Position numbers and translations under genes: made by a program. The notes below the pieces were generated by a model that worked only from the letters and a program-made list of their open reading frames with translations, had not been told where the DNA came from and searched no databases. This document shows, one piece after another, positions 1,861-22,063 of a stretch of DNA of 22,063 nucleotides. The first letter of the stretch is position 1; every line of letters starts with the position of its first letter. This stretch comes from a virus: positions 1-22,063 of IMG/VR virus record IMGVR_UViG_3300031626_001263; one strand, given 5' to 3'.

Positions 1861-1888
1861 ATTATAAATATAAATATATGAAATTCAA
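1861..1888 (-). promoter_or_regulatory. Sigma-70-type promoter for the nrdA operon
   Basis: Read on the minus strand: -35 TTGAAT at 1888-1883, 16-base spacer, -10 TATAAT at 1866-1861, then five bases to the ATG at 1855. No ribosome binding site fits between -10 and ATG, so the transcript should start at or beside the start codon. The -35 lies inside the first codons of the divergent gene at 1878. Confidence 0.65.
1863..1870 (+). promoter_or_regulatory. T4-late-type promoter word TATAAATA
   Basis: An exact match to the T4 late promoter -10 word TATAAATA lies seven bases before the ATG at 1878; a second overlapping copy occupies 1869-1876. No -35 hexamer is visible upstream, as expected for sliding-clamp-activated late promoters. 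The same tract supplies the minus-strand TATAAT. The DNA is AT-rich, so chance matches are possible. Confidence 0.5.
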
Positions 1889-2108
1889 CGCTTTAGTTAA
1901 AAATATATTAGAAGATTTTAAAGCTCCAACCGATACTAAAAGACCTACCAAAAGGTCTAAGGGTAAATATGGTACCGTTAACCCACAATTAAACGATCCA
2001 CATAGTACTAAAGCTATTTCTGGATTTAAAGGCATGCCTGGTGGTAAACAGCATACTTTAAAATTTGCGTTACCTAAGCGTAAGAAGAAGACTAAAAAGC
2101 CATCTTAA
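1878..2108 (+). CDS. Small basic protein with capsid-targeting-like leader, 76 aa
   Basis: I chose the ATG at 1878 rather than the longer reading from 1815, because the extra 21 residues would run across the divergent promoter region. The protein begins MKFNALVKNILED, nearly the same leader as the protein starting at 20453 and similar to that of the superoxide dismutase, with an I-L-E site of the kind cut by T4-type prohead protease. The rest is very basic, ending KRKKKTKKPS, with Gly/Pro/Lys-rich low-complexity sequence, as expected of an internal head protein that binds DNA. It converges with the muramidase-like gene, overlapping its 3' end by 17 bases. The function is an inference; the leader similarity is directly visible. 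Confidence 0.7.
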   Translation: MKFNALVKNILEDFKAPTDTKRPTKRSKGKYGTVNPQLNDPHSTKAISGFKGMPGGKQHTLKFALPKRKKKTKKPS

Positions 2109-2601
2109 CACCTTTTTGAATATCAGCGTCTGAAATCTTAGCAGCTTCTTTTTGACCATTTTCAAATTGGAAAATTGGTCTCATTAATTTTATTAACACC
2201 TGTGGGTCATTTAGATCAATTTTTTCATCAACATCAAACCCTGATCCGTTTGAAACATGTTTTGCATAGTTGGCGTTATTTGGATTATTATCTTCTGGAG
2301 GAGCATATCTATCAATAATTTTATTAATAGTATCTATACCATATTTTCTACCATATGTTCTTAAAATCCTAGCAGAAGCTCTAACCCCCATATGCATATC
2401 GCTAAATCTCTCAAATTCTTCACCAGGTTCAGTTACCTCACCATTCCAATTTGTAGGTGAGGTACGAATATTTCCAGGATTATTATTAAAGATTGATGCG
2501 TCGGCTTGGCTAGCCATTAACCCTGCTGCTGCAAATGCACCAGTTGCTAATGCTTTACTAAATTTACCTTCTTCAATAACGTATGCTTTAAATGTCTGCA
2601 C
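2092..2601 (-). CDS. Virion muramidase-like protein (NNPGNIR family) with capsid-targeting-like leader
   Basis: The motif NNPGNIR (39-45) followed by FERFSDMHMGVRASARILRT is typical of phage virion-associated peptidoglycan-degrading proteins, often annotated as structural protein P5 or muramidase; these open the cell wall for DNA entry. The leader MQTFKAYVIEEGKF closely matches the T4 internal-protein capsid-targeting pattern (M-x-T-aromatic-x-x-aromatic-(I/V)-x-E) and has an I-E-E cleavage-like site. A hydrophobic Ala/Gly-rich stretch (17-31) ending SQADA could alternatively be a signal peptide or signal anchor. The start codon is GTG at 2601 and shares its first G with the helicase TAG stop, so translation is probably coupled. 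A classical endolysin is the main alternative to a virion enzyme. Confidence 0.72.
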   Translation of the reverse strand: MQTFKAYVIEEGKFSKALATGAFAAAGLMASQADASIFNNNPGNIRTSPTNWNGEVTEPGEEFERFSDMHMGVRASARILRTYGRKYGIDTINKIIDRYAPPEDNNPNNANYAKHVSNGSGFDVDEKIDLNDPQVLIKLMRPIFQFENGQKEAAKISDADIQKGVKMAF

Positions 2602-6983: not shown

Positions 6984-7011
6984 ATTATAAATTATAAAAT
7001 GAATTTATCAA
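6984..7011 (-). promoter_or_regulatory. Sigma-70-type promoter for the DUF366/clamp-loader/co-chaperonin operon
   Basis: On the minus strand: -35 TTGATA at 7011-7006, 16-base spacer, -10 TATAAT at 6989-6984, then six bases to the ATG at 6977. The -35 lies within the last codons of the upstream GT17 gene. No ribosome binding site fits, so a leaderless transcript is expected. Confidence 0.7.
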
Positions 7012-7855
7012 GCTTATTTTTATTATTAATTATATATTCTGGGTAGGTATTGTCTATTTCTACCTTTTTTAGTGAACCTTGCCTTCCAAAAATATCTTGC
7101 AAATTATCTACAGTATTGTCAAGATTATCTTTAATATCGTCTCTATTTATTTCTTGATGACTATAGCTAATAATTTTTTCTTTTACCGCTTCTTTACCAC
7201 CCATAAAACTAAAATGCCAACCACCGTTATCAACTAAACTGTCCCATTTAAAATTTCTTGTATCATTTAAGCAAACATTTTTAATAGTTTCATAACTAGT
7301 GAGGGTTGTACCTTTCCAATTATTTTCTTTAAAAACATTAAAATAATAATAGTACATATTTTGGAGCAATCTGTAAATTTTATCTTTATTAAAAAATTTA
7401 TTTAAATTTTCAATTACCTTTGGGTTAGGTATTTCATCTATATCTGACATTAAGATAATATCTTCATCGTTACATTTACCATACCCAACCCGTAACATTT
7501 CTCTATGTAGGAAATCTCTACACCAATTCTTTTCATTTTTAGGAAAATGTGTTGCATTTTTAAAAAATGTTAATACTTTATTTGTTTCTTCTTCTTTAAA
7601 ATTTTCTGGATTGTCAATAAATTTAACATCATTAAAGTCATCAAATTCTAAATCATGCTTAATATAAATTATTTTATCTGAATATTTTTTAAATAAATCT
7701 CTATTTTTTTCAAATATATACTCTTTCTTTAGACCGGAATGAGTTATATTGAATTCTGAAATAATAAAATAGTCTACTACATTGTCTAAGATTTTTAATC
7801 TTATATCAAGTAAATCGAGTTCGTTAAAAAATATAAATGTATCGTAAATTTTCAT
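6992..7855 (-). CDS. Glycosyltransferase family 17 protein, 287 aa
   Basis: The N-terminus YDTFIFFNELDLLDIRL is diagnostic of GT17 (named for eukaryotic beta-1,4-mannosyl-glycoprotein N-acetylglucosaminyltransferase but widespread in viruses and bacterial surface-glycan clusters). It is followed by FIISEFNITHSG, WCRDFLHREMLRVG, an acidic ILMSDIDEIPNPKVI (DxD-type metal/nucleotide-sugar site) and a Tyr-rich YYYYFNVF. The C-terminal part holds GWHFSFMGG, also typical. The start overlaps the upstream GT11-like gene by four bases. It is the last gene of the sugar cassette. The transferred sugar and acceptor cannot be told from sequence. Confidence 0.92.
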   Translation of the reverse strand: MKIYDTFIFFNELDLLDIRLKILDNVVDYFIISEFNITHSGLKKEYIFEKNRDLFKKYSDKIIYIKHDLEFDDFNDVKFIDNPENFKEEETNKVLTFFKNATHFPKNEKNWCRDFLHREMLRVGYGKCNDEDIILMSDIDEIPNPKVIENLNKFFNKDKIYRLLQNMYYYYFNVFKENNWKGTTLTSYETIKNVCLNDTRNFKWDSLVDNGGWHFSFMGGKEAVKEKIISYSHQEINRDDIKDNLDNTVDNLQDIFGRQGSLKKVEIDNTYPEYIINNKNKLDKFIL

Positions 7856-8772
7856 AGTTGTATGTTATGTTCTTCAAAGAATTTATGTTTGAAATTTTCA
7901 TATTCAACTTTACATTGACCGTAGTCATAAAAATTATTATTAGTATCTTGATACAACCAATCTTTAGTTAAGGCTTCTCCTTGAGACCAAAAGCCATCAG
8001 AAATATTATGCCTTGCCCAATATTTAGGAGCTATACAAAATTTATTCTTAGAACTCGTCCAAACAGCAAACCATGCAAAGGAAGTGTTAGATAGAATAGT
8101 ATAATACGCATTATGTATAACTGAATAATCCCACTCTAATGTTTCATGCCTTACTTCAAAGTCTGGAAACCATTCTTGACTTGTATTTACATCGTCCGTA
8201 ATAACTACAAATTTCATATTAGAATTTATCTTCCTCATTTTTTCTATTGCATTGTCCCAATAGTTTTTTTGTAAAAATAGATCATGTTGTGGTATATACT
8301 CTGGACCACCTCTTAGATTTAAAATGCATGTATCCTTATTTGAGTACTTACTTTCATAATAATCCTCATTAACGTGTAATAATTTTTTAATATCTTCCCT
8401 GCGGTGATCTATATATTGTTCAGCTTGCATAGTACCATCTATTTTTGTATTGTCTGGCAATCTAAAAAAGTTAGTATCAATAGGATTTATATAACAATTA
8501 TACTTCGGATGGAATACGTTCTTTTCTTTATAATAATGTTTTATATTTTCAGGTAACGATGTAGGGGGTCCGCCTTCTGGCCCTGAACCACCATTAACTG
8601 TAATAGTTTCTAACTCCTCTTTAATGTTAGGAAATAAATTTAAACCTTTAAACTTATTAGGACTTTGTATACCAAATTTATATCCTAAATCTTTAGCTAA
8701 TGTTCTGGTAACCGTATAACACCAGATTTGATTGCCTAACCCCTGCCCGTTATATATTTCAGTTATTAACAT
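7852..8772 (-). CDS. GT11-like (alpha-1,2-fucosyltransferase-like) glycosyltransferase, 306 aa
   Basis: The N-terminal GQGLGNQIWCYTVTRTLA matches the nucleotide-sugar-binding opening of GT11 enzymes (GGLGNQxFQ). CILNLRGGPEYI sits where GT11 has its H-x-R-x-G-D motif, and SNTSFAWFAVW followed by IAPKYWAR matches the conserved end. The R-G-G without the usual His and Asp departs from the family, so donor specificity could differ from fucose. I chose the ATG at 8772: it leaves a 14-base overlap with the upstream gene and starts right before the first strand. An upstream ATG at 8814 adds residues lying inside the neighbouring gene. It is paralogous to the GT11 gene at 14486. Confidence 0.82.
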   Translation of the reverse strand: MLITEIYNGQGLGNQIWCYTVTRTLAKDLGYKFGIQSPNKFKGLNLFPNIKEELETITVNGGSGPEGGPPTSLPENIKHYYKEKNVFHPKYNCYINPIDTNFFRLPDNTKIDGTMQAEQYIDHRREDIKKLLHVNEDYYESKYSNKDTCILNLRGGPEYIPQHDLFLQKNYWDNAIEKMRKINSNMKFVVITDDVNTSQEWFPDFEVRHETLEWDYSVIHNAYYTILSNTSFAWFAVWTSSKNKFCIAPKYWARHNISDGFWSQGEALTKDWLYQDTNNNFYDYGQCKVEYENFKHKFFEEHNIQL

Positions 8773-9430
8773 AATATTTAGAATTCTTACCATGAAAACC
8801 AAATGGGTTTTCAATATCTTTTATTTCTTCAACTGGACACTCATGGGAGAAATATTTAGCTATATCAGTAGAAGCAAATTTAATGCCTTCTTTTTCTAAT
8901 AAATGCCTATTATGGCAAGTTAAAAAACCATCTTCATTCCAATAACCATAATATTGTTTCCACTCTAAATTTAATTTAGATGGTAGCTCTAAAAGCTTTT
9001 TACTTCTGAATGAAAACCCTCCATTACCAACTCTAATTAAATTACCGAAAGGATCTCTATATGAGATTTTATCGCTATCATCTGGTACTGGCCATATAGC
9101 ACCAATATAATCATAATTATAAAAATCATCTAACCAACTAGTTGGGTTAACTACATACCCATCATCCTGTACTAATAATACAAATTCTGTATTAATATAA
9201 TCTTTTAAATCGTATAAGATAAATCGATTATATTCTACATAATCTAATTCTTTATCTAACTTAATTATTTGGACCTCTGTATTTTCAGTCTCTGCATTTT
9301 TCGGAGTTAAAAGCTTTACTTCTCCAAAAGTAATACCTTTCATCGAGTGTTTGATAGCATTATAAGCCTCTTGAATTCTAACCCCGGCCACTGCCACTAA
9401 AGTTACGTTTGGTAAATTTATTTTATTCAT
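8759..9430 (-). CDS. DUF5672-type glycosyltransferase-like protein, 223 aa
   Basis: The motifs fit the DUF5672 group found in glycan clusters: NVTLVAVAGVR at the start, FVLLVQDDGYVVNPTSW (about 102-118, with the acidic QDD), YDYIGAIWP, VGNGGFSFRSKKLLE, NEDGFLTCHNRH and a final NPFGFHG. The GT-A-like layout suggests a glycosyltransferase, but the activity of this family is not established to my knowledge. Its start overlaps the RmlD-like reductase by eight bases and its end overlaps the GT11-like gene, so it is embedded in the sugar operon. Confidence 0.85.
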   Translation of the reverse strand: MNKINLPNVTLVAVAGVRIQEAYNAIKHSMKGITFGEVKLLTPKNAETENTEVQIIKLDKELDYVEYNRFILYDLKDYINTEFVLLVQDDGYVVNPTSWLDDFYNYDYIGAIWPVPDDSDKISYRDPFGNLIRVGNGGFSFRSKKLLELPSKLNLEWKQYYGYWNEDGFLTCHNRHLLEKEGIKFASTDIAKYFSHECPVEEIKDIENPFGFHGKNSKYYVNN

Positions 9431-10241
9431 GTATATTAAAATTTTTAAGATCTATTATTTGTTGATAGATCGTTTTCGTTATTGGTGATTTATAAATTGA
9501 AGATAAATTTCTAAAACAATTATTATCAGTTGAAACTTCTTCAATTATTAAATTTAATTTATATACTTTATTAATATATTCTACTAAGTCTAATTTTGAA
9601 ACCGTATCAGGTGAATAAAAATGACGTACACCTTGCCAAGATATATTATCTTCAATCATTATTAAAACTTGTTTGCTTAATTCAAGACAAGTCACCCCGT
9701 TCCATAAATGATTTTTAAACCCCATCACCTTTTGACCTTTCTGTGATATAACCCACTCAAGTAAAGATTTTTTATTATTTTTTTCTTCACCAATAATAGA
9801 TGTTCTAATAATAGTAATATTTTCAGGTTCACCGAGTGATTTACTTTTACCATATATATCGTTACATGTATGGTTGCAATTTTCGTCTAATAATATATCT
9901 AAACTTCTATCACCATCATACACACAATCAGTTGTAAAATGTATTATATTAGTATTATATTTTTCTTTTATAGCTGATAAAAAATAGGGTAACAAACTAT
10001 TAATTTTTACCATTTCTATTTCATCATAATTTCGTTGTTTAATAATACCAGAAGCGTTTAGAATATAGTCACTGCTTGTAATACCTAAATCATCGATATA
10101 TTTTTCTAAAGTTTCAAATGTAATTTTAGAAAGATCTAAATCGTTTCTTGTTGATGGTATAACTTCGTGATTAACAGAAAGATATTTTGTTAAGTATGTA
10201 CCTAACATACCATTTGAACCTAATATTAGAATTTTACCCAT
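9423..10241 (-). CDS. RmlD-like sugar-nucleotide reductase (extended SDR), 272 aa
   Basis: The NAD(P)-binding motif GSNGMLG (8-14) is followed by NDLDLS, LNASGIIKQ, FTTDCVYDGD and the catalytic YGKSKSLGE (Y-x-x-x-K), in the order seen in dTDP-4-dehydrorhamnose reductases and related reductases. In such enzymes the 4-keto sugar made by a dehydratase is reduced to the final nucleotide sugar. The dehydratase-like gene lies directly upstream and overlaps by eight bases, so the two probably act in sequence. RmlA, RmlB and RmlC are absent from the window, so the product need not be rhamnose; an N-acetylated 6-deoxy sugar is equally possible. Confidence 0.85.
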   Translation of the reverse strand: MGKILILGSNGMLGTYLTKYLSVNHEVIPSTRNDLDLSKITFETLEKYIDDLGITSSDYILNASGIIKQRNYDEIEMVKINSLLPYFLSAIKEKYNTNIIHFTTDCVYDGDRSLDILLDENCNHTCNDIYGKSKSLGEPENITIIRTSIIGEEKNNKKSLLEWVISQKGQKVMGFKNHLWNGVTCLELSKQVLIMIEDNISWQGVRHFYSPDTVSKLDLVEYINKVYKLNLIIEEVSTDNNCFRNLSSIYKSPITKTIYQQIIDLKNFNIHE

Positions 10242-11163
10242 TAAAAAAATTCCTTTCCTCCAAATAATTATAAAGTTCTTGTTTACTTAAGCAATAATCT
10301 TTAGACGAATATTCTGTTGCTTCAAAGTTTACATTGTTAAATTCCTTTTTCGGGTGTAATAAGTATAAATTATCTTTCTCTATATATTCCATTCTTCTTT
10401 TTTCTTCATTTGAAGCCATAATTTCATGTATTTTTTCACCAGTTCTTAAAGAAGTTATTTCATATTTTAATCCAAATTTTTCTTTATAAATTTGAAATAA
10501 ATCTTTTATTTTAAATGAACGTGCCATTGGTATTACACAGACATTGCTATACTTGGTTGATTTAAAAATTAAATCAATAGCCTCGTCAATGTCTAATAAA
10601 AATCTTGTCATTTCAGAACCATATAACTGCAACTTATTTTTATTTTTAATAAAATTCCAAATTAAAGGTATGATTGAACCAGTAGAGTTGGTAACATTTC
10701 CATAAATTGCCGTTGTTAGTTTGCAATTAGATTTACCTGCTATAAATCCTTCACCAGCGACATACTTCATAGCTCCGTATATAGTGGTAGCTGCTCTACT
10801 CTTATCTGTCGAAATAAAACAACCAGATTTAAAATTATTTTCTTCAGCAGCTATTCTAGAATTAAATGCCCCATCAATAATAATTTTCGAAGCCTCTTCA
10901 TAATTTTCATCACAAGCTTCTATCTGCTTTAAAGATGCAGCAAAAATACCTACTGTATGGTCTCTAGATTTTCTAAGTAATAAATCTCTATTTCTTATAT
11001 CACCTACAACGAAATTAACTTTAGGAAATTCTTTCTTAATATAATAATGTTTAGCTTCATCACGTGAGTAAACAGTTATTTCATTATTTTTATATAGCCG
11101 TTTAATTAAATTTTTACCTAGGTAGCCAGCACCACCAGTAATAAAAATTTTTTCATTTTTCAT
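10234..11163 (-). CDS. UDP-N-acetylglucosamine 4,6-dehydratase/epimerase-like SDR (CapE/PseB type), 309 aa
   Basis: The NAD(P) motif GGAGYLG (10-16) is followed by VYSRDEAKHY, VGDIRNRD, AASLKQIEACDENYEEA, ISTDKSRAATTIYGAMKYVA and TRFLLDIDEAIDLI, then LRTGEKIHEIM. This is the signature of the CapD/CapE/PseB group, which starts synthesis of 6-deoxy-N-acetyl sugars by 4,6-dehydration of UDP-GlcNAc. Tyr and Lys of Y-G-A-M-K are present, so the enzyme looks intact. It is the first gene behind an internal promoter in the sugar cassette and is coupled to the reductase that would complete the pathway. The exact stereochemistry cannot be told from sequence. Confidence 0.87.
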   Translation of the reverse strand: MKNEKIFITGGAGYLGKNLIKRLYKNNEITVYSRDEAKHYYIKKEFPKVNFVVGDIRNRDLLLRKSRDHTVGIFAASLKQIEACDENYEEASKIIIDGAFNSRIAAEENNFKSGCFISTDKSRAATTIYGAMKYVAGEGFIAGKSNCKLTTAIYGNVTNSTGSIIPLIWNFIKNKNKLQLYGSEMTRFLLDIDEAIDLIFKSTKYSNVCVIPMARSFKIKDLFQIYKEKFGLKYEITSLRTGEKIHEIMASNEEKRRMEYIEKDNLYLLHPKKEFNNVNFEATEYSSKDYCLSKQELYNYLEERNFFNG

Positions 11164-11168
11164 ATCTA

Positions 11169-11196
11169 ATTATAGCTAATATTTTGCAGTTATCAA
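11169..11196 (-). promoter_or_regulatory. Sigma-70-type promoter inside the sugar cassette
   Basis: On the minus strand: -35 TTGATA at 11196-11191, 16-base spacer, -10 TATAAT at 11174-11169, then five bases to the ATG at 11163. It lies in the only real gap (42 bases) of the cassette and would drive the dehydratase, reductase and three glycosyltransferase-like genes as a separate, probably leaderless transcript. Confidence 0.72.
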
Positions 11197-11205
11197 GCAT
11201 TAACA

Positions 11206-11946
11206 TTACTTGTATTTCTCATTAACTTCCCAGTCACAATTAAAAATTAACCATAAACATCTTTCAATCATATGAGCTTCTCCAATAACTATATCATAAC
11301 TTAAAATTCTTCTTATTTCTTCATAGAATTTTTTACTATGTTTTAACATATAAGATTTGGGTATAATATAACTACCACCCGGGGCAAACCTAAACCAATT
11401 TACCTTTTTAGGTGTTTTATACATTTCTTTTAAAAATTCTTCAACATATGTATAATATTTACCCGGGTGCTTATGATGGTGTAAATACCAACTATCGTTT
11501 CTTTCACAATAACTATTATCTGGACCGTAATTATTAGTTGTACCGTTTATTCTCCAACTATCATCTGTAAAATCTTGAAGTTCTGTAAAAGTATTATTAT
11601 TACAATTCTTCATAAAAAACTCTTCAGTACATGTACCATTTGATAATCTATTACCATCCTCATCTAGCCTTGGTGTACCTGTATCTTTGGGTGAGTAAAT
11701 GCAAGCTCTGCAAAATAAAGTATTTTCTGGTAAATTATTGTAATTTTCTACTATAAAATCAAATATATCATATATGTTTTGACCTACATTTTTTTGATGT
11801 TTGATTTTATGTGATTGCTCAAATCTATGATATCTATCATAAATTAAATAGTTATCACTTAATTTATCAACCCACGAATCTTCTATATTCTCAGGTAACC
11901 AATTATAATCGCTAACTACTAAAAAATTATTTTTTATATATTTCAT
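11206..11946 (-). CDS. DUF3431-like protein, putative glycosyltransferase-associated, 246 aa
   Basis: The C-terminal half fits the pattern I recall for DUF3431: RFAPGGSYIIPKSYMLKHSK, then KFYEEIRRIL and a final IGEAHMIERCLWLIFN. The N-terminal half has IYDRYHRF and ENLPENTLFCRACIY-like segments and several cysteines (for example NGTCTEEFFMKNC). The family occurs beside glycosyltransferases in sugar clusters, but its activity is unknown to me. The ATG at 11946 shares one base with the stop codon of the epimerase gene upstream, so translation is probably coupled. No signal peptide or membrane helix is seen. Confidence 0.72.
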   Translation of the reverse strand: MKYIKNNFLVVSDYNWLPENIEDSWVDKLSDNYLIYDRYHRFEQSHKIKHQKNVGQNIYDIFDFIVENYNNLPENTLFCRACIYSPKDTGTPRLDEDGNRLSNGTCTEEFFMKNCNNNTFTELQDFTDDSWRINGTTNNYGPDNSYCERNDSWYLHHHKHPGKYYTYVEEFLKEMYKTPKKVNWFRFAPGGSYIIPKSYMLKHSKKFYEEIRRILSYDIVIGEAHMIERCLWLIFNCDWEVNEKYK

Positions 11947-12941
11947 TATTTCCAGTATTCGTAAATACCCTCAGTAACTTCATAATTCATTAACTTTGTC
12001 TCTCTATCAGGCTGTTCTTTAGCCCAAGTAAACATACTATCAATTAATTTATATAGGTCTGTTTTATCTTCAAATTTTAAAAGTTCTTTTGCTTTTTTAT
12101 GATCAGAATATGCATGTTTTACCTCATGTCTTGGTTCTTTATATTCAATCTCAACGTGCAACTGATGTTTATTCATTGCAATATCTTGTACAATATTTGC
12201 AACCTCATTAATTGTAAAATATTTATCTGCACCAATATTGAAAATTTCACCATTATGTTCTGATATTAATTTTTCAAAAGGCTCCATATAATATTGTATA
12301 TCTGAAAAAGCTCTTGTCTGTTCACCATCTCCGTAAATTAAAATAGGTTCACCGTTTAAAGCTTTTTTGATAAAGATACCAATAACATTTCTATATTTAT
12401 CCCAAATATTTTGATATATACCTAACACATTATGTGGCCGGACGATATTATACATAAGGTCAAATTGTTTATGTGCTGTAATTATATCCATTTCAACTGC
12501 ATATTTTGCTATACCATAAGGATCAATTGGGGACTGTAGTAGGTCTTCAGTAAAGGGTGGGGTTTGGTTACCATAAACTGCCATAGAGGATGTAAAAATT
12601 AATTTACTTTTACTTTTTATACATTCATTAATTATATTAATAGAAGCTAATACATTATTAGTATAGTTAAAATTTCTAATAAAAGGGGAAAGACCTTCAG
12701 CAGCATAAGCTGCAAAATGATAAACTACTTCTGGTTCATAAAGTTCAAAAATATCTTTTAAACCTTGTATATCTTTTTCTAAATTTAGATTACAAAATTT
12801 AAAATTTTCATGCTCAGGTAAAAAATCTTTATAACCACCGAAAAAATTATCTATACCTATAATTTTATGACCTTTTGATAATAAATGTCTTGATAAATGA
12901 CAACCAAGAAGTCCAGCTGCTCCAGTAATAACAATATTCAT
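11946..12941 (-). CDS. NAD-dependent nucleotide-sugar epimerase/dehydratase (GalE-like extended SDR), 331 aa
   Basis: The Rossmann motif GAAGLLG (7-13) is followed by DNFFGGYKDFL, YHFAAYAAEG, FTSSMAVYGNQTPPF and the catalytic PYGIAKYAVE (Y-x-x-x-K). The C-terminal part has RPHNVLGIYQNIWDKYRNV, GDGEQTRAFSDI and FNIGADKYFTI, in the order typical of UDP-glucose/UDP-hexose 4-epimerases and related dehydratases. It likely makes a nucleotide sugar for the neighbouring transferases. All catalytic residues are visible (S-S-M, Y, K). Whether it acts on UDP-glucose, UDP-GlcNAc or another sugar cannot be decided here. Confidence 0.9.
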   Translation of the reverse strand: MNIVITGAAGLLGCHLSRHLLSKGHKIIGIDNFFGGYKDFLPEHENFKFCNLNLEKDIQGLKDIFELYEPEVVYHFAAYAAEGLSPFIRNFNYTNNVLASINIINECIKSKSKLIFTSSMAVYGNQTPPFTEDLLQSPIDPYGIAKYAVEMDIITAHKQFDLMYNIVRPHNVLGIYQNIWDKYRNVIGIFIKKALNGEPILIYGDGEQTRAFSDIQYYMEPFEKLISEHNGEIFNIGADKYFTINEVANIVQDIAMNKHQLHVEIEYKEPRHEVKHAYSDHKKAKELLKFEDKTDLYKLIDSMFTWAKEQPDRETKLMNYEVTEGIYEYWK

Positions 12942-12949
12942 AAGATTAT

Positions 12950-13675
12950 TTAACCTTTAAATTTCAATTTACAATACTGAATTTCTCTAGATATTAGACC
13001 TGGGTCCGCTCCTTCATTATTACTAATCTGACCGGGGTGTTGTCTAATTACAATACCATGATAATTTATAATTCCGGGGTATCCAAATTTATCAGCCATT
13101 TGTTTATAGAAATCGCAATCCATTAACATTACTAATTTTTCATCAAAAAATATTTTTTCATCTCTATTTCTTAAAGAAATAATACTAGGTCCGCTCATTG
13201 TATTTTCACCTAGGTAAATTCTTTCTGTATATGTCGGAGTAACAATTCTAGAAGCAGTTTTAACATCACGGGTTTCATAAAAGCAACTTGCTGCCCATTC
13301 ATAATTATTTTCTTTATAAAAATCATATATGGTCTGAAGAGTATTTTTATTACGTACAAAATCATCTTGAAATAAAATTTGTATAATTTTTTTCTGACAT
13401 CTATTTAACACTCTATTTGCATTAGGTGATAAACCTTTATTATATGGTCGATCATCTAAAGGTATATCTTCACTTTTAAAATATTTTATATCTAAAATAC
13501 TATTATAACCATCTAACATTTTTTTAATATTATCATTATCACTATCATCACTAATAATAACTTCAAAATTTTTAAATGTTTGTTTTTCTAATTGCTTTAA
13601 AGAGAATTTTATAAATTCTGCTCCTTCACCATTCTTATCGAATGCTGGTATTGCTATTGATATTCCACTTTTCAT
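12950..13675 (-). CDS. Family 2 glycosyltransferase, 241 aa
   Basis: The GT-A start GISIAIPAFDKNGEG is followed by LKQLEKQTFKNFEVIISDDS (about 27-46, nucleotide binding), a spacer with NANRVLNRCQ, and the acidic IIQILFQDDFVRN in the place of the DxD motif. The C-terminal half contains MSGPSIISLRNRD and KLVMLMDCDFYKQMAD, typical of acceptor-side residues in GT2. A Shine-Dalgarno-like GGGAAG lies about seven bases before the ATG, within the end of the upstream gene. The donor and acceptor sugars are unknown. Confidence 0.9.
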   Translation of the reverse strand: MKSGISIAIPAFDKNGEGAEFIKFSLKQLEKQTFKNFEVIISDDSDNDNIKKMLDGYNSILDIKYFKSEDIPLDDRPYNKGLSPNANRVLNRCQKKIIQILFQDDFVRNKNTLQTIYDFYKENNYEWAASCFYETRDVKTASRIVTPTYTERIYLGENTMSGPSIISLRNRDEKIFFDEKLVMLMDCDFYKQMADKFGYPGIINYHGIVIRQHPGQISNNEGADPGLISREIQYCKLKFKG

Positions 13676-13679
13676 AAAT

Positions 13680-14489
13680 TTACGCTTCCCACGTTTTTAT
13701 ATATTCTTTAAGTTCTTTATCAGAGCAATTGCCTACAAACTCACTATGATTGTAATTATTTTGATACATGTTATGTCTCTCTCTTATTGTATTTTCGTGA
13801 GGAAAATGCCAAGCTATAGCATTATGATCTTTAACTCTATCCCACGTATAACCTAATCTCTTAACTCGATTAATAATTTCATCATCTTCAAATCCCCAAG
13901 CAACAAAATTTTGATTATAACCGTTAAATTTAATAAATCGTTCTTTATTATACATAACCATTCCACCTTTACTACCGGGGTGGGCTACCAAAAAGTTATC
14001 AGTTTCATGATATGGTACGGGTTTCAGTTCTTGAATTTTATCATTTAATAAATTCATTTCATATTTACTAGTGAACTTATCCATTAAATGTTGCTTAAGG
14101 TGAACAAACATTCCATTGTAAGGGTGTAAAATGCCTAACTTATCATCTTTTTCGAACATTTCCTTACCTTTAAGTAGATATAACGGGTCGATAAAAACAT
14201 CAGTATCACCGGCGATTAGGTAATTAGATTCTAAATTTCTCATACCTTTATTAAAAGCTAATGTCCTGTGATATAACCCGTCGTTTTTCATGAATAGGAT
14301 TTTACAACCATATTTTTCATGTAATTCTTTTAATGATGCATCCGGTTCTTTATCATCATTTACTATTACTATTTCTAAATTTTCAGAAAAAGTCCTATAA
14401 AAAGATAACACACATTTTAAGTTGCGTAATCTATCTTCTACATCTTTTCTAAAGTGAATAATTAAACCTATATCTTTTAAATCTGTCAT
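13680..14489 (-). CDS. GT-A glycosyltransferase (family 2 / galactosyltransferase C-domain type), 269 aa
   Basis: The early part has IGLIIHFRKDVEDRLRNL and NLEIVIVNDDKEPD, then YHRTLAFNKGMRNLESNYLI and AGDTDVFIDP (DxD motif). The late part has SKGGMVMYNKERF and FVAWGFEDDEIINRVKRLG, the hallmark of the C-terminal galactosyltransferase domain (W-G-x-E-D-D/E-x-x). Such enzymes add hexoses to growing surface glycans. The ATG overlaps the stop of the GT11 gene upstream by four bases (ATGA). It appears intact. Confidence 0.9.
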   Translation of the reverse strand: MTDLKDIGLIIHFRKDVEDRLRNLKCVLSFYRTFSENLEIVIVNDDKEPDASLKELHEKYGCKILFMKNDGLYHRTLAFNKGMRNLESNYLIAGDTDVFIDPLYLLKGKEMFEKDDKLGILHPYNGMFVHLKQHLMDKFTSKYEMNLLNDKIQELKPVPYHETDNFLVAHPGSKGGMVMYNKERFIKFNGYNQNFVAWGFEDDEIINRVKRLGYTWDRVKDHNAIAWHFPHENTIRERHNMYQNNYNHSEFVGNCSDKELKEYIKTWEA

Positions 14490-15247
14490 ACTGTTATAAT
14501 TTTAAATTCTTTCCTGTAAAGTCCTTCTGTATTTGTATTATCATTAAACCATCTAGATGGGGCAACAATTATATCCTTTTTGTTAAAATATGATGCAAAC
14601 CATGACAAGGTACTGTTAGATATAATTAAATTTTTACATCTTGTTAAGAATAAAAAATCTCCTATTTCATTACCACCGTCTATAATTTTAACCTCACCTG
14701 GCAATAACTGGTTAGCGTAATTTTTGTCATCGGTAACCGCATAAAGCTTACTATTTTTAAATAACCCGATACTATCTTTATAATATTGCTGATTAATAAT
14801 ATTATGCTTTGAGTATATTTTATAATCTCCGCCTCTAACATGAATACCAACGGTATCGTCATCTATAAAATCATCAATTTGTTCTATTTTAGATTTTAAA
14901 GAGCTAAAACTAATAATATCTAAATCTTCTTTATCAAAATAATAATCAGATTGAAAATAACCTTCTAATATTACATTACCATCCATAAATGGTATTTCAT
15001 TATACTCGAAAGATGGTTCATTATATAAATTAAAGCTACTATCTATTTTATTTTCTGGTATATTTTGAAATAAATTATTTTTATATGTACTTGGTGTATT
15101 ACCTTGACTAGCATGGAATTTGTTATTGTAATCTATAAAAAATTCTTTACCGTGTACCTTTGCATAATTATAACCAGCTAATATTTGAAATAGTTGATTA
15201 CCTAACCCGCCTTTTAAATTTACTGTTACTTTATATTTTGTTTGCAT
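14486..15247 (-). CDS. GT11 alpha-1,2-fucosyltransferase-like protein, 253 aa
   Basis: The protein has the full GT11 layout: NLKGGLGNQLFQILAGYNYA at the start, VILEGYFQSDYYF, TVGIHVRGGDY (the H-x-R-x-G-D motif that binds the GDP moiety), YAVTDD and FLFLTRCKNLIISNSTLSWF, ending with IVAPSRWF. These enzymes move fucose from GDP-fucose to a galactose 2-OH in O-antigen or capsule. GDP-fucose synthesis genes are not in the window, so the host may supply the donor. It overlaps the end of the upstream GT2 gene by 22 bases. It is a second, more canonical GT11 member in addition to the gene at 7852. Confidence 0.92.
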   Translation of the reverse strand: MQTKYKVTVNLKGGLGNQLFQILAGYNYAKVHGKEFFIDYNNKFHASQGNTPSTYKNNLFQNIPENKIDSSFNLYNEPSFEYNEIPFMDGNVILEGYFQSDYYFDKEDLDIISFSSLKSKIEQIDDFIDDDTVGIHVRGGDYKIYSKHNIINQQYYKDSIGLFKNSKLYAVTDDKNYANQLLPGEVKIIDGGNEIGDFLFLTRCKNLIISNSTLSWFASYFNKKDIIVAPSRWFNDNTNTEGLYRKEFKIITV

Positions 15248-16020
15248 TTTTTTAAAAAGTTAACTATATCACTCACTGAGGAATCAGGTACACAACCTTG
15301 CCAAGCTGGTAAATAACCATGCTTATTTTTAAATATTTCAGCACTTTCCATTATTTTTTGTTGCCAATTATCACCTCTTCTAATAGAAGAATTATCTTCA
15401 CTACAAGCTTGTTCTTCAATATAATCTAGACTATTAGCAATATCAGACCACCACCAATATGGTGTACTGTAACCAGCCTTAGCTAAACTATAAGAATGCT
15501 CGACATGTTCAAAATTATTTTTATCAAAATTTTCATCAAATAAGCCTACCTTTTTTAAACACTCTTTTGTATAAAAGCAAACTGCACCAACGCAGTGTTG
15601 ATTTAATGCTAATTTAAAATCACCATAATCTATAATTTTTCGTGGTTTTGGTTCACCTTTACTAATATTACCTTTATTAGCTGGTCCATGGTAACCAAAC
15701 ATCATATGATGAATACCTGTTTTTTTATAAGCATCAATATAAGCTTTAAAAGCATTATCTTTAAACATCATATCATCCTCAACTATAAAAATATAATCGC
15801 ATCCAGTTTTCAATAAATGTTTAAATAATTTATTTTTACTTTTACATACACCAATATTTTTTTTATTATTAATGATATTATAACCAGCGTTTTGTAAAGG
15901 TACATTACCATCATTTACTATTAATAATTCATCATACCATTCTTTATTAATACTTTTTAAACATTTATCTAAAAAATTATTCCTATTACATGTAACAATA
16001 CCTATTCCTATCTTTGACAT
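15226..16020 (-). CDS. Family 2 glycosyltransferase, 264 aa, first gene of the sugar cassette
   Basis: The start KIGIGIVTCNRNNFLDKCL and ELLIVNDGN are typical of GT2, followed by NNKKNIGVCKSKN, CDYIFIVEDDMMF (DxD-type EDD) and a C-terminal QHCVGAVCFYTKECLKKVG with GLFDENF. I chose the ATG at 16020 rather than the longer frame from 16098. The extra 26 residues are hydrophobic low-complexity sequence read across the divergent promoter region, and this ATG lies seven bases after a clear -10 box. It heads the cassette. Acceptor and donor are unknown. Confidence 0.9.
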   Translation of the reverse strand: MSKIGIGIVTCNRNNFLDKCLKSINKEWYDELLIVNDGNVPLQNAGYNIINNKKNIGVCKSKNKLFKHLLKTGCDYIFIVEDDMMFKDNAFKAYIDAYKKTGIHHMMFGYHGPANKGNISKGEPKPRKIIDYGDFKLALNQHCVGAVCFYTKECLKKVGLFDENFDKNNFEHVEHSYSLAKAGYSTPYWWWSDIANSLDYIEEQACSEDNSSIRRGDNWQQKIMESAEIFKNKHGYLPAWQGCVPDSSVSDIVNFLKKCKQNIK

Positions 16021-16027
16021 TATATAT

Positions 16028-16055
16028 ATTTTATAATAAATAATTAATATGTCAA
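16028..16055 (-). promoter_or_regulatory. Consensus sigma-70-type promoter of the sugar cassette
   Basis: On the minus strand: -35 TTGACA at 16055-16050 (perfect consensus), 16-base spacer, -10 TAAAAT at 16033-16028, then seven bases to the ATG at 16020. The -35 is formed by the first codons (ATGTCAA) of the divergent gene at 16049, so coding and promoter sequence are shared. The transcript should be leaderless. Confidence 0.7.
16035..16042 (+). promoter_or_regulatory. Late-promoter-like word AATAAATA before the tail-type gene
   Basis: AATAAATA, one base from the T4 late word TATAAATA, ends six bases before the ATG at 16049. A TTGACA at 16014-16019 lies 17 bases before TAAATA; it is made by the first codons of the divergent gene, mirroring the opposite promoter. 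Either element, or both, could be used. Confidence 0.4.
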
Positions 16056-16414
16056 CCGAAATAAGTATTAAACAATTACCTGTAGTAACTGAAATCAATA
16101 ATGATGATTTGTTATTAGTTCAAACACCAAATGCAACTAATACATTAAAATTTGAAAATTTTGTTATCGGTTTAGAAAATACTACATTTGCCCCTACAAT
16201 TAGCTCTAGTGCTACTAAACTTGCTTATTTAAGTTCAGTTTTTGATAATACCTTCTTCTTTGCTCCGGTAGAAGATGGTCCTAATATATTAACCAATAAT
16301 ACAACTAGTACTACATTATCAGTAATTGATACTGACAAGATACCAATTCAGATTACATCAGGTGGTCAGAAAAGGACATATTATTTCTTATTAGAGCGTG
16401 GCGCGACTGTTTAA
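16049..16414 (+). CDS. Small virion/tail-fibre-type structural protein, 121 aa
   Basis: The opening ISIKQLPVVTEINNDDLLLV, then a short strand and LKFENFV, is the recurrent beginning of phage tail-fibre and related structural proteins (I-K/S-x-L-P ... D-D-L/F-x-(V/I) ... (K/V)-x-F-x-(N/D)-F). The rest is Thr/Ser-rich beta sequence, for example TTFAPTISSSATKLAYLSSV. There is no signal or membrane segment. It may be a fibre adaptor or a truncated fibre; the usual large fibre body is absent. It overlaps the 3' end of the kinase-like gene by four bases and has a short terminator-like hairpin just beyond. Confidence 0.7.
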   Translation: MSTEISIKQLPVVTEINNDDLLLVQTPNATNTLKFENFVIGLENTTFAPTISSSATKLAYLSSVFDNTFFFAPVEDGPNILTNNTTSTTLSVIDTDKIPIQITSGGQKRTYYFLLERGATV

Positions 16415-17229: not shown

Positions 17230-17940
17230 ATGATTACGTTTGATGAAAAGTCCCATACTTACAAGTGTAGTAAAACCGGTAGAGAATTAATATCGGCAAC
17301 TACTTTAATAGGTAAGTATAAGAAGCCATTTGATAAAATGGAAAATGCAACTCGAGTAGCTAATAGAGAAGGTTTAGATGTCGACTTTGTATTAGATATG
17401 TGGGAGACGGAAAAGAATAGAGCTTGTGATTACGGTACTAGTATTCATAAGGTCATGGAAGATTATTTGACCGAAGGGGTTGAAGAAGAAGAGCATGAAT
17501 CTTTGTATTCTTCTTTTAATAAGTGGAAGCATATCTTTAAGAAGTTTCCTACTTTATTATGTGAAGAAAAATTACATGATTTAGATAATTTTATTGCTGG
17601 TACAGCAGATTTAATTTACGAAAATAAAACCCATTTCATGGTTGGTGATTTTAAGACTAATAAAGCGTTTAATTTCTTCTCTCAATATAATGAGTTTATG
17701 CTTAAACCGATGGATCATTTAAGTGTATGTGAATTCAATACATATGCGTTACAATTATCTTTATATGGTTATTTACATGAAAAGAGTTCAGGCAAAAAGT
17801 GTACCGGTTGTGTTATATTCTATAAGGATAAAGAAACTAATAAGTTTTACCCAATCAGGGTTAACTATATGAAGAATGAAATTATTGCATTAATTGAAGA
17901 TTACAATAATCCCAATTCACTATCTTCAAAAATTGCTTAA
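17230..17940 (+). CDS. PD-(D/E)XK nuclease, RecB/Cas4-like, 236 aa
   Basis: The layout fits the PDDEXK_1 group. It has ISATTLIGKY near the start, GTSIHKVMEDYL with H73, GTADLIY with D127, then VGDFKTNK with D140-x-K142, and LQLSLYGYL with Q175-x-x-x-Y179, the RecB-type motif V. Such nucleases process DNA ends in recombination or degrade DNA. The four Cys cluster of Cas4-type Fe-S nucleases is absent (cysteines at 13, 66, 111, 167, 191 and 194 lack its spacing). It has its own promoter and converges with the superoxide dismutase gene, overlapping it by 59 bases tail to tail. Confidence 0.85.
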   Translation: MITFDEKSHTYKCSKTGRELISATTLIGKYKKPFDKMENATRVANREGLDVDFVLDMWETEKNRACDYGTSIHKVMEDYLTEGVEEEEHESLYSSFNKWKHIFKKFPTLLCEEKLHDLDNFIAGTADLIYENKTHFMVGDFKTNKAFNFFSQYNEFMLKPMDHLSVCEFNTYALQLSLYGYLHEKSSGKKCTGCVIFYKDKETNKFYPIRVNYMKNEIIALIEDYNNPNSLSSKIA

Positions 17941-18505
17941 TATACTTTTCTCTATTAGGACCATACTTTTTATAGTAAGCATGCTCCCATACATCTATAC
18001 CAAGTAGTATAGTTACGTCTGAATACATTAAAGGGTTATCTTGGTTGTTGGTAGGTATTAATTCTAATTTATTACCTTTTTTAACTAACCATAACCAACC
18101 TGAACCGAAATGACTTAAAGCTTCTTCAACAAATATAGCTTTAAAATTATCAAAACTCTTATATTGTTTTTCAATTAACTCTCTAATAGGTCCAGAAATT
18201 GTTTTTCTATCTGGTGACATCATATTCCAGAATAACTGGTGATTATACGCGCCCCCTGCATTATTACGAATTGCATCTTTTTTAGATTTAGCTTTTTTAA
18301 CTATTGACAATAAATCTTGCTTATTAGTAGCTGGTAATGCTGCATTTAATTTTTTAACATAACCTTTATAGTGTTTGTTAAAATGCAAGTTCATTGTTTC
18401 GGCATCTATACTAGGCTCTAAAGCATCTAAAGCATATGGAAGCTTTATAGCTTTAATACCACCCACTTCTTCTAAAATTAAATCTGCTATTTTGTTATAT
18501 TCCAT
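17882..18505 (-). CDS. sodA: Mn-type superoxide dismutase with capsid-targeting-like N-terminal leader, 207 aa
   Basis: The enzyme converts superoxide to oxygen and hydrogen peroxide. Metal ligands are all present: H41 (in NLHFNKH), H89 (in NHQLFW), D171 and H175 (in DVWEHAYY). Mn-type markers are NNAGG before H89 and Gln155 in NNQDNPLM, where Fe enzymes differ. Relative to E. coli SodA it has about 14 extra N-terminal residues, MEYNKIADLILEE plus V, which resemble leaders of other virion-like proteins in the window. Cleavage after Glu13 would leave nearly the usual start before LPYALDALEP. The C-terminus ends soon after the conserved VNWD. A TAAATA word lies seven bases before the ATG. The host gene is its likely source, but the leader looks phage-made. 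Confidence 0.93.
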   Translation of the reverse strand: MEYNKIADLILEEVGGIKAIKLPYALDALEPSIDAETMNLHFNKHYKGYVKKLNAALPATNKQDLLSIVKKAKSKKDAIRNNAGGAYNHQLFWNMMSPDRKTISGPIRELIEKQYKSFDNFKAIFVEEALSHFGSGWLWLVKKGNKLELIPTNNQDNPLMYSDVTILLGIDVWEHAYYKKYGPNREKYIKQFLKIVNWDYCNLQLMQ

Positions 18506-18955: not shown

Positions 18956-19153
18956 TTATTTTTTACCGCCTTTCATATTTGCACACCAATGATACATTTT
19001 ACCTTTTTCACCACCAGATTTTTTAGCTTTACGTCTTAGTTCAGTTACCGAACCTTTACAACTAGCCCCTGATTTTTTAACTCTACCCGGGCGGCTTTTT
19101 CCTTTTACCTTTTTATCGGCGTAATTTTCAAAATATGTACTAAAATTAATCAT
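18956..19153 (-). CDS. Small Lys/Gly-rich protein with Cys and His, leader of capsid-targeting type, 65 aa
   Basis: The start MINFSTYFENYADKK follows the T4 capsid-targeting spacing (aromatic residues at 4 and 7/8, Glu at 9), although no (I/L)-x-E site is present. The body is highly basic (KKVKGKSRPGRVKKSG) with two conserved-looking segments, ASCKGSVTELR and KMYHWCANMKGG; I recall this ending from other marine phages but cannot verify it. A DNA-binding internal head protein is a reasonable inference. It abuts the collagen-like protein gene with no gap and belongs to the same minus-strand run. Confidence 0.7.
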   Translation of the reverse strand: MINFSTYFENYADKKVKGKSRPGRVKKSGASCKGSVTELRRKAKKSGGEKGKMYHWCANMKGGKK

Positions 19154-20098
19154 TTATGAAGGAGCTATTCTGTTTAAGGCATCTATAATTACACTAGCAT
19201 AATAATTTACACCCGAGTTTGCTGTTTCGAAGTCAACCTTGCGTTGACCTTTTAAGATATCATAATTAAAATCCGTTTTACTTTCATAAACTGTATCAAC
19301 TAAAGATGCTTCAAATGTTTTTAACGCGTTCCTCCAAGTGGTACCAAGACTGCCGACTACATAGCTGCCATCTCCGGTACCGGCTCCGATTTGGAAAAAT
19401 ACAGCTCTGTTATTAGGTTTAAAATCTAAACCTTGTTTCATAAAACCTATCGACCCGGCATAGCCGGAATAGCCGTCATCACCTGGTGCCCCGTCGAAAT
19501 CGTCAGGAAAGGTCCCACCAGGTGCGTAACTACTATTCGACATGATATCTTGAAACATCATATTAATAACGTTTTTTGAGGAATCTACCATATCTAACCC
19601 TCCTATTGCTATACTATTTTTCTTAGCAGTAATCCCATTTAAATGAGAACTAGGACCGTGGTTTGCAAGAGTACCGCTACCGGTAGTCAGGCTTTGCATA
19701 GTACGCACAGTAACATTTGAATTATAAAGCGATTCGTTGTTACCATAAAAAGGTAGTAGCAGGCTCTTTAATTCAACACCTCGTAGACTTACTAAACTGT
19801 CAAAAGCTCCTGCCATTGAGGTACCACTAGTGGAGTTTTGAATAACAATATTAATAAAAGTATTTTGATTTATGAGACTAGTTAAACCGCCATCGAAAGC
19901 AGCAATCGTCTCACTAGTAAGGGACCCGAAAATTTTCGTAGATTTATATTTTTGATATTGGGCCCGGATACTATCTATAGATACTTCTTTATTTAACTCA
20001 TCTTTCGTTTTAAAATTATCTGGTCTAGACTTTGAAATTGACCGACTTCGTTTTAAATTATTTTTTGATATTGCTAGATATTTTTTTCTATTAATCAT
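19154..20098 (-). CDS. Probable virion structural protein with a short collagen-like run, 314 aa
   Basis: I do not recognise the family. The N-terminus is basic and Ser/Arg-rich (KRSRSISKSRPDNFK, about 16-30). The middle is Ser/Thr/Gly-rich beta-like sequence (for example FINIVIQNSTSGTSMAGAFD). Five consecutive Gly-x-y triplets (GAP GDD GYS GYA GSI, 203-217) are followed by hydrophobic sequence. Such runs are common in phage fibres and decoration proteins. The C-terminal part NSGVNYYASVIIDALNRIAP looks helical. It overlaps the gene upstream by eight bases. The DNA at the Gly-rich part is unusually G+C-rich (33 of 60 bases in 19441-19500). Confidence 0.72.
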   Translation of the reverse strand: MINRKKYLAISKNNLKRSRSISKSRPDNFKTKDELNKEVSIDSIRAQYQKYKSTKIFGSLTSETIAAFDGGLTSLINQNTFINIVIQNSTSGTSMAGAFDSLVSLRGVELKSLLLPFYGNNESLYNSNVTVRTMQSLTTGSGTLANHGPSSHLNGITAKKNSIAIGGLDMVDSSKNVINMMFQDIMSNSSYAPGGTFPDDFDGAPGDDGYSGYAGSIGFMKQGLDFKPNNRAVFFQIGAGTGDGSYVVGSLGTTWRNALKTFEASLVDTVYESKTDFNYDILKGQRKVDFETANSGVNYYASVIIDALNRIAPS

Positions 20099-20453
20099 TT
20101 TCTTTCATTCTTTGGGTTTTTTTCTTACTTGCTTCTTTTTTATTTTTAATATAATTAAAAGCAGCTCTTAAACTCTTTTTCTTTATAGGGTCTTTGGTTC
20201 TTCCTACTGCGGCTCTAACTCTTTGATGTATTAAATTTATAATTTGAGATTGTCTTGCATGAGATTTCGATTTAAAAGATCTTTTATTTAAAGTACCTCT
20301 TACATCAGCTACTGTACTAAATTTTACACTAACTGTATCTTTAGGATTTTCATCGGTATACAGTCTTCTACTAGAACCTTTAGGTTTTTTACCGGTTCCT
20401 TTCTTAGGATCAGCTTCTAATAATATTTTTTCTACTAAAGTGTTAAACTTCAC
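20091..20453 (-). CDS. Basic internal-head-type protein with capsid-targeting-like leader, 120 aa
   Basis: The start codon is GTG at 20453 (an ATG would lie too far downstream), giving MKFNTLVEKILLEADPKKG, whose first 13 residues nearly match the leader at 1878 (M-K-F-N-x-L-V-x-x-I-L) and contain an L-L-E site. The remainder is Lys/Arg-rich: GSSRRLYTDENPKDTVSVKF is a motif I have seen in marine phage proteins, followed by HARQSQIINLIHQRVRAAVG and KKASKK-like tails. An internal, DNA-binding or DNA-delivered protein is likely. It is the first gene of the minus-strand virion run. Confidence 0.72.
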   Translation of the reverse strand: MKFNTLVEKILLEADPKKGTGKKPKGSSRRLYTDENPKDTVSVKFSTVADVRGTLNKRSFKSKSHARQSQIINLIHQRVRAAVGRTKDPIKKKSLRAAFNYIKNKKEASKKKTQRMKEND

Positions 20454-21095: not shown

Positions 21096-22063
21096 TTACT
21101 TACTGATAGCTCTATAAACTTTATCCCAATCTTCTCCTGGATCATTATCCTTTAGATCTGCTACCCGATCTTTCATCATATTATAATAATATTCTAACTC
21201 TGTATTTTCTTTTATTGATTTATTAAGAGTATTTTCTGCTTTTAACCAGTCTCGATTTTTATAATGCTTTAAGAATGTATCATGTAGCATATAATTGAAT
21301 TGGTCAGTTAATACTGTATAAACTGTTATACCTTCTTTCTTACCCTTAACAGCAATTTTATCTAATTCTATAAATTTAAACTTATTATGTATAAGGTTAA
21401 CAGTTTCCTGACCTAATAGAATACCCACACCATATGCTTTAGTTTGACCTTCAAGTCTCGCAGCTAAATTAACTCCATCTCCTAAGCACGTGTAATCGAA
21501 TCTTTGATCTGAGCCCATATTACCGACAACAACTCTACCTGTGTTAATACCGATACCGATTGCTAATGGTTTCTTACCCTCTTCAATTAACTGTATATTA
21601 AGGTTAGTTAATTCTAATTGCATTTTTATTGCAACTTCAATTGCTTTAATACGGTGAGTTATTTGATCTTCAGGTAAAGGTGCATTCCAAAATGCCATTA
21701 AAGCATCTCCAATATATTTGTCTATTGTACCACCTGATTCCATTACGATACGAGTCATTGGTGTTAGGTATCGATTGATTAGATAAGTTAAACCTTGAGG
21801 GTTATCTTTAAACTGTTCACTAATTGTAGTAAATCCTCTTATATCTGAAAATAGTATTGTTAAGTCTTGGGTATCACCTCCAAGTTTTAACATATTAGGG
21901 TTCTTTTGTAGCTTCTTAACTATTTCAGGAGCTAGGTAATGTTCGAACTGTTTTTTAATTAACATTTTACCTTTATATTCATGTATAAATCTAAAGAATA
22001 TAGCCAACGTAAATACAATAAAAATACTATAAACAGGATATGTAAAATCGTATAATAAATTGT
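21096..22063 (-). CDS. Membrane-anchored class III adenylate/guanylate cyclase, C-terminal part
   Basis: The reading frame is open to the right edge, so the N-terminus is missing. Just inside the window lies a membrane segment (YPVYSIFIVFTLAIFFRFI, about 21984-22040). Then comes the YLAPEIVKKL linker typical of CHASE2-cyclases, and the catalytic domain. Counting from the codon at 22007, residues for catalysis are present: D55 in FSDIRGFTT and D101 in DKYIGDALMAF (metal), K97 and T173 (base recognition, with Thr typical of class IIIb), N180 and R184 in DGVNLAARLE (transition state). The enzyme should make cAMP (or cGMP) from ATP (or GTP) in the host membrane. A sensor domain such as CHASE2 probably lies outside the window. 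Confidence 0.93.
   Translation of the reverse strand, partial: NLLYDFTYPVYSIFIVFTLAIFFRFIHEYKGKMLIKKQFEHYLAPEIVKKLQKNPNMLKLGGDTQDLTILFSDIRGFTTISEQFKDNPQGLTYLINRYLTPMTRIVMESGGTIDKYIGDALMAFWNAPLPEDQITHRIKAIEVAIKMQLELTNLNIQLIEEGKKPLAIGIGINTGRVVVGNMGSDQRFDYTCLGDGVNLAARLEGQTKAYGVGILLGQETVNLIHNKFKFIELDKIAVKGKKEGITVYTVLTDQFNYMLHDTFLKHYKNRDWLKAENTLNKSIKENTELEYYYNMMKDRVADLKDNDPGEDWDKVYRAISK

Follow-up and report, generated by a model that had tools for sequence, protein, structure and literature searches.

The question raised by this locus is whether the superoxide dismutase (SOD) encoded by a T4-like phage acts as an ordinary enzyme of the infected cell or is carried in the phage head by means of a short N-terminal leader. 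The window (the whole stretch of DNA that was analyzed, 22,063 nucleotides) is a 22-kb virus fragment that contains neither gp21 nor gp23. The preferred explanation, with a probability of about 0.7, is that the SOD is a T4-type internal head protein with enzymatic cargo, which would be made late, loaded into the prohead by its leader, and trimmed. The features of the window that bear on this question are collected in Table 1.

Table 1. Features of the window discussed in the text. A slash marks a cut site, which is predicted for all entries.
Feature	Position	Strand	Size and start	Sequence or remark
Mn-type SOD gene, N-terminal leader plus enzyme	17882..18505	minus	207 aa, ATG start	
Leader peptide, putative capsid-targeting/cleavage peptide	18470..18505	minus	residues 1-12	MEYNKIADLILE; predicted cut after E12
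SOD leader stretch, tag form				MEYNKIADLILEE
Basic protein, same leader	1878..2108	plus	76 aa, pI 10.7	MKFNALVKNILE/D
Basic protein, same leader	20091..20453	minus	120 aa, pI 10.7, GTG start	(V)KFNTLVEKILLE/A
Basic protein in the gene run of the SOD	18956..19153	minus	65 aa, pI 10.3	MINFSTYFE/N
Lysozyme-like protein	2092..2601	minus	GTG start	MQTFKAYVIE/E (MQTFKAYVIEEGK); phrog_873 'endolysin, head and packaging', 2.5e-42
Two overlapping T4-late-type promoter elements	1863..1876	plus		TATAAATATAAATA; just ahead of the 1878 ATG

Identity of the Enzyme

The window SOD was matched by the Pfam domains Sod_Fe_C (1.4e-33) and Sod_Fe_N (1.2e-25) over residues 21-201. Its relatives of solved structure in the PDB are SODs, mostly MnSODs, with E values as low as 5e-50. 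The metal ligands H41, H89, D171, and H175 are retained and are invariant in 18 orthologs, as are the Mn-type second-shell markers G85 and Q155. The roles given to these ligand and second-shell residues are those known for E. coli SodA. A previous reading of this DNA from the sequence alone (the sequence-only reading) had listed all metal ligands and Mn-type markers, and the residues, the Pfam matches, and the 18 orthologs confirm that list. Judged by both Pfam domains, the four ligands, and the Gly/Gln markers, the gene is a complete Mn-type SOD, and the enzyme is expected to be active.

The fold, the ligands, and the Mn-type markers are held in common with the bacterial and archaeal Mn-SODs of the SodA type. 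The closest cellular sequences found, also SodA-type Mn-SODs, are about 45-49% identical to the window SOD, and the cellular enzymes of this type do not have its 14 extra N-terminal residues. The AlphaFold2 model obtained from the ortholog alignment has a confident SOD fold, and residues 1-13 (helix 3-13) are of low confidence and lie outside that fold. The SOD gene and a convergent PD-(D/E)XK-like ORF (17230-17940) overlap at their 3' ends by 59 bases (17882-17940), and a similar overlap is present in relatives.

Leader and Predicted Cut Site

Close relatives of the SOD (51-93% identical) were found at 30 viral loci on public viral contigs, which are fragments. A leader of 12-14 extra residues is present in 28 of the 28 viral orthologs with a readable N-terminus. 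For comparison, 76 cellular SOD loci from a genome collection were inspected and the leader pattern was found at none of them. The nearest ATG is located 7 codons ahead of the LPY motif in 71 of these loci and 6 or 8 codons ahead in three more. The extension of the window SOD amounts to 14 residues because its start is 21 residues ahead of LPY versus 7 in the cellular SODs. This value agrees with the figure of about 14 given in the sequence-only reading, and the host SODs with the same extension that would have spoken against that reading did not appear among the 76 loci.

M1, L11, and E12 are the only invariant leader positions in the 18 orthologs. At L11 and E12 the codons vary without any change of residue, and position 13 drifts among E, Q, S, K, and G. 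In 17 tabulated leaders, position 3 is Y or F and position 6 is L, I, or V, which are the counterparts of the T4 docking residues Y4 and F7; position 10 is I in 15 leaders and F or L in two, and is followed by L11-E12 in all 17. By these measures the leader is phage-specific and conserved at the protein level.

Because E12 is invariant and residue 13 is variable, the likely cut is I-L-E/x, after E12. The P1' residue would then be E13 in the window and E, Q, S, K, or G among the orthologs. At the T4 sites compared it is mostly A or S, and a small residue (A, S, or G) is usual in T4. Such a cut would leave 9 residues ahead of LPY, and the cellular SODs have 6-7. A cut one residue later, after L-E-E (E13), had been proposed previously and is abandoned since residue 13 varies while E12 does not. 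A GTG start at V14, which would give a SOD of normal length, was also discarded; the orthologs do not keep a start codon at position 14, and the codons upstream of it show conservation at the protein level.

The Leader on Other Proteins

A leader profile was trained on the SOD leaders only and applied to the sequences of these phages, at 1172 starts of non-SOD ORFs and, for comparison, at 2749 internal methionines. The starts came from mechanical ORF calls, and for two genes a start at GTG was assumed. At a threshold of at least 6 bits, the profile matched 12 of the 1172 non-SOD N-termini and 2 of the 2749 internal methionines (14-fold; Fisher p = 2e-5, a value that is optimistic because related phages were treated as independent). 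Shuffled N-termini are expected to give 0.85 matches at the same threshold. A loose regular expression for the leader was too permissive, being enriched only 2.3-fold at N-termini, and was replaced by this profile; the first pattern scan of the loci agreed with the profile.

Small basic proteins and the products of one gene cluster in a 185-kb genome make up most of the profile matches. The basic proteins at 1878 and 20453 of the window itself score lower, at 2.5 and 0.6 bits, and their families were found by the profile. The common pattern is apparent in MKFNALVKNILEDF (1878), VKFNTLVEKILLEA (20453, GTG start), and MEYNKIADLILEEV (SOD). The sequence-only reading had attributed one leader pattern to these three proteins, and this likeness holds beyond chance by the profile; the leader recurs at other N-termini when the related phages are searched, as that reading had suggested doing.

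The 65-aa basic protein and the lysozyme-like protein were added to the leader set by eye. The N-terminus of the lysozyme-like protein is compatible at each position with the T4 capsid-targeting sequence MKTYQEFIAE/A. Homologs of the 65-aa protein in annotated phages, intended as a second leader control, gave no match. The 120-aa basic protein is conserved upstream of the SOD in L002, L005, L011, and L029.

A natural control for leader use in T4-type phages is provided by the RARHNCDNPG basic protein (RARHNCDNPGPK). Outside the T4 group this protein starts at its domain (Kolga MAKYQGRTVKLNKP, HTVC026P, and CRP-901). In the T4-type Kyanoviridae it carries a leader that ends with a hydrophobic-x-E site, as in C48C1 (...ELTE/AEYQGKKVTLNKP) and HTVC008M (...LEE/AEFQGKKVTLNDP).

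The likeness among these leaders could be due to chance, since short helical N-termini may abound in L, I, K, and E. In favor of chance, high scores were also obtained at two internal methionines, and the looser pattern is the one with the modest 2.3-fold enrichment. The enrichment of the SOD-trained profile, the 28 of 30 cut-site junctions of other phage SODs described below against 3.8 in shuffles, and the 0 of 76 cellular SODs with the leader all argue against this explanation, which is regarded as very improbable.

Two further leader-bearing proteins were observed in relatives. A 665-aa protein (L048:9213-11207 (-); MINFKQHHKVLLE) contains DUF6267 and a cytidylyltransferase-like domain, and relatives of its N-terminal part, most of which have a hypothetical-protein annotation, are found in hundreds of cyanophages. 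In L006 (8836-9432) a Nudix hydrolase is fused to a leader (MIFNDLVEFILNE) and a basic KSRPGRVK-ASCKG domain; the Nudix and the basic protein are separate genes in neighboring phages.

Prohead Protease and Head Proteins of the Relatives

The protease of the window phage is deduced from its relatives because the window fragment is without gp21 and gp23. An S77 prohead protease and gp23 occur together on 6 of the 21 SOD-carrying contigs tested, so that the gp21-like protease called for in the sequence-only reading has been located in relatives. On the L011 contig, a T4-like genome of 185 kb, gp21, gp22, and gp23 follow the T4 order, and this gp23 shares about 33% identity with the gp23s of cyanophages. 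The sites in the head proteins of the relatives are MSLNLIVE/T for gp21 (T4, MNEPQLLIE/T), MDIKQILSE/A for gp22 (T4, MLKEQLIAE/A), and WCLNE/A for gp23 (T4, FLTE/A). The T4 record also contains MKTYQEFIAE/A for ipII/ipIII and MAKINELLRE/S for gp24.

In the T4 IPIII leader, residues 4 and 7 direct targeting and residues 8 and 10 direct processing (PMC9026906). Ten residues suffice, and foreign proteins tagged with them are packaged and delivered to the host (PMC9026906; PMC9958956). The T4 capsid-targeting sequence (CTS) of IPII/IPIII is, along with the gp24, gp22, and Alt propeptides cut by gp21, a short N-terminal peptide like the SOD leader. Both have an aromatic residue, a hydrophobic residue three positions on, and then a hydrophobic-x-Glu site, and each is also found on small basic proteins; S77 and gp23 are present in the relatives. 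The SOD leader differs from the T4 CTS in having 12 residues to the predicted cut instead of 10, and its P1' residue is mostly not A or S. The putative cargo also differs in being a metabolic enzyme.

Gene Position and Late-Type Promoter Elements

The SOD is located 83 nt behind gp23 in L018 and L030, with the late-type element NATAAATA at -14, and this arrangement of promoter and gp23 recurs in L019. The same late-type element is present at -13/-14 of the SOD in L004 and L026. At most of the other loci the SOD is directly downstream of the gene for the 65-aa basic protein, and the two genes overlap. The exact late element was not found directly before the SOD in the window. In the 185-kb genome, the element is found ahead of 12 of the 25 genes for leader-bearing or head proteins versus 33 of 218 others (p = 3e-4), a comparison that is only supportive because the 25 genes were chosen by hand. 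The late-type element is only 12-15 nt ahead of many start codons (the pair in Table 1 and L044-L053), and at this distance the messages would be nearly leaderless.

A Second Group of Phage SODs

A profile-guided scan gave 442 viral SOD relatives, and the analysis was carried out on the closest 80 of the 442. One group among these 80 has mostly unrelated N-termini and was termed freshwater because its contigs look so overall. In this second group the SOD sits behind leaders of 30-45 residues or behind a HEWxH-motif domain, sometimes with a C-terminal domain too. An [LIVFM]xE motif ending 8-10 residues ahead of LPY is present at 28 of 30 distinct junctions (26 from the second group and 4 more distant marine-type); the shuffles have an expectation of 3.8 and a maximum of 10. 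The density of [LIV]xE is seven times higher in the second-group linkers than in the SOD core. An S77 protease is encoded on several second-group contigs. The PA5oct-group SOD begins ...ISIAE/AASS, and an S77 protease is present in that genome. Vibrio phage 2.275.O is a counterexample, with a divergent SOD that has no leader although the genome has an S77 protease.

These N-termini bear on the possibility that the SOD works in the infected cell like any other auxiliary enzyme, with an N-terminal helix that is incidental (related to folding, oligomer state, or turnover) and not a head-targeting signal. Many host-type metabolic enzymes are carried by phages, as is generally known; the leader is predicted to be helical, and Nudix and thymidylate-kinase-like genes are nearby. 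An incidental helix would, however, have to be reconciled with a leader that is common to unrelated proteins and in which only L11-E12 is conserved besides M1, with the position of the SOD behind gp23 and a late-type promoter in one lineage, and with the retention of the cut-site position by the different SOD N-termini of other phages. This explanation is therefore considered improbable.

Fusions of the SOD to a C-terminal domain were observed at L243:3557-5419, L246:3557-5686, L211:3905-5470, and L248:3911-5455, with [LIV]xE in the linkers. The L243 and L246 fusions also have an N-terminal HEWVH metallopeptidase-like domain. These four fusions are possible prohead-protease-cut precursors.

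Proposed Role in the Virion

The sequences show the identity of the enzyme, the leader with its phage-specificity, its conservation, and its use on other proteins, and the protease and capsid genes of the relatives. The preferred explanation extends to SOD activity, targeting, cleavage, packaging, and function, all of which are inferred. The Mn-SOD would be made late by a T4-like phage and loaded into the prohead, with MEYNKIADLILE as the capsid-targeting peptide. The aromatic residue 3 and the hydrophobic residue 6 would dock to the scaffold core, and I10-L-E12 would serve for cleavage. A gp21-type S77 prohead protease would then cut after E12 to give a basic enzyme of 195 residues (pI 9.3), which would be packed with the DNA beside the small basic leader-bearing proteins. 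At infection the SOD would enter the host with the DNA and remove superoxide there; protection of the packaged DNA would be an alternative or additional role. The removable T4-type capsid-targeting leader of the sequence-only reading is probably correct, given a leader that is phage-specific, shared with small basic proteins resembling the T4 internal proteins, provided with an [IL]xE site, and found in phages with S77 and gp23. The exact cut site given there is not retained.

In the literature, no virion proteomics or leader-cleavage data were found for these phages, and no phage-encoded virion SOD was found. In the MIJ3 paper no more than four major proteins were identified, and SOD does not come up in the main text. 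Further points against the preferred explanation are the P1' residues, the two additional leader residues ahead of the cut, the derivation of the protease from relatives, the leaderless SOD of Vibrio phage 2.275.O, and the window SOD without the exact late element directly before it.

A parallel is the Cu/Zn SOD A245R of chlorovirus PBCV-1, which is likewise virus-encoded, the product of a late gene, and packaged in the virion (PMC7019647). A245R differs from the window SOD in belonging to an unrelated enzyme family and to a eukaryotic virus. A leader of the putative prohead-protease type, as on the window SOD, is not known on A245R. The redox proteins of the poxvirus lateral bodies are also reported to be particle components that reach the host by delivery; both virus and proteins are unrelated (PMC9282662).

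The SOD could also be packaged by its leader, exactly as in the preferred explanation, and then stay in the head to guard the packaged DNA from superoxide made by light or metals. SOD dimers are generally known to be very stable and could impede passage through the tail tube. That PBCV-1 packages its own Cu/Zn SOD is compatible with such a role, but the PBCV-1 enzyme has been connected with a reduced superoxide level in infected cells and not with DNA protection (PMC7019647), and the proteins that T4 ejects include its internal proteins, Alt, and even foreign proteins bearing the CTS (PMC9026906). Retention in the head as a guard is thus somewhat unlikely. Injection into the host is most likely the purpose, ahead of DNA protection, because the T4 internal proteins are ejected and the packaged chlorovirus SOD goes along with a lower superoxide level during infection of the cell.

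According to one proposal, the T4 capsid-targeting leader offers T4-like phages a general means of carrying varied proteins (PMC9026906). In the sources consulted, the natural cargo is mainly Alt and the internal proteins, which are small and basic and include an anti-restriction protein; the SOD would be a metabolic enzyme cargo, and thus a new cargo for the known mechanism of T4-type capsid targeting. If the SOD is packaged, this would suggest that oxidative stress is important early in infection or for the survival of the particle. Head cargo in uncultured phages could be predicted with the help of the leader rule (an aromatic and a hydrophobic residue at the start, followed by [LIV]xE). 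A wider scheme is offered tentatively, in which marine and freshwater T4-like phages would have a modular internal-protein system that includes SOD. In some lineages a precursor composed of a metallopeptidase-like domain, SOD, and a C-terminal domain would be cut into separate cargo and injected, and host oxidative stress would be blunted early.

Two further observations were made in the window. An ORF for a class III adenylate/guanylate cyclase (Pfam Guanylate_cyc, 1.5e-25), an unusual signaling enzyme for a phage, is located at 21096-22007 (-), and matching or related cyclase ORFs are upstream of the SOD in several relatives (such as L006 and L011). A long series of ORFs that resemble glycosyltransferases and nucleotide-sugar epimerases, as judged by eye, occupies 6992-16098 (-).
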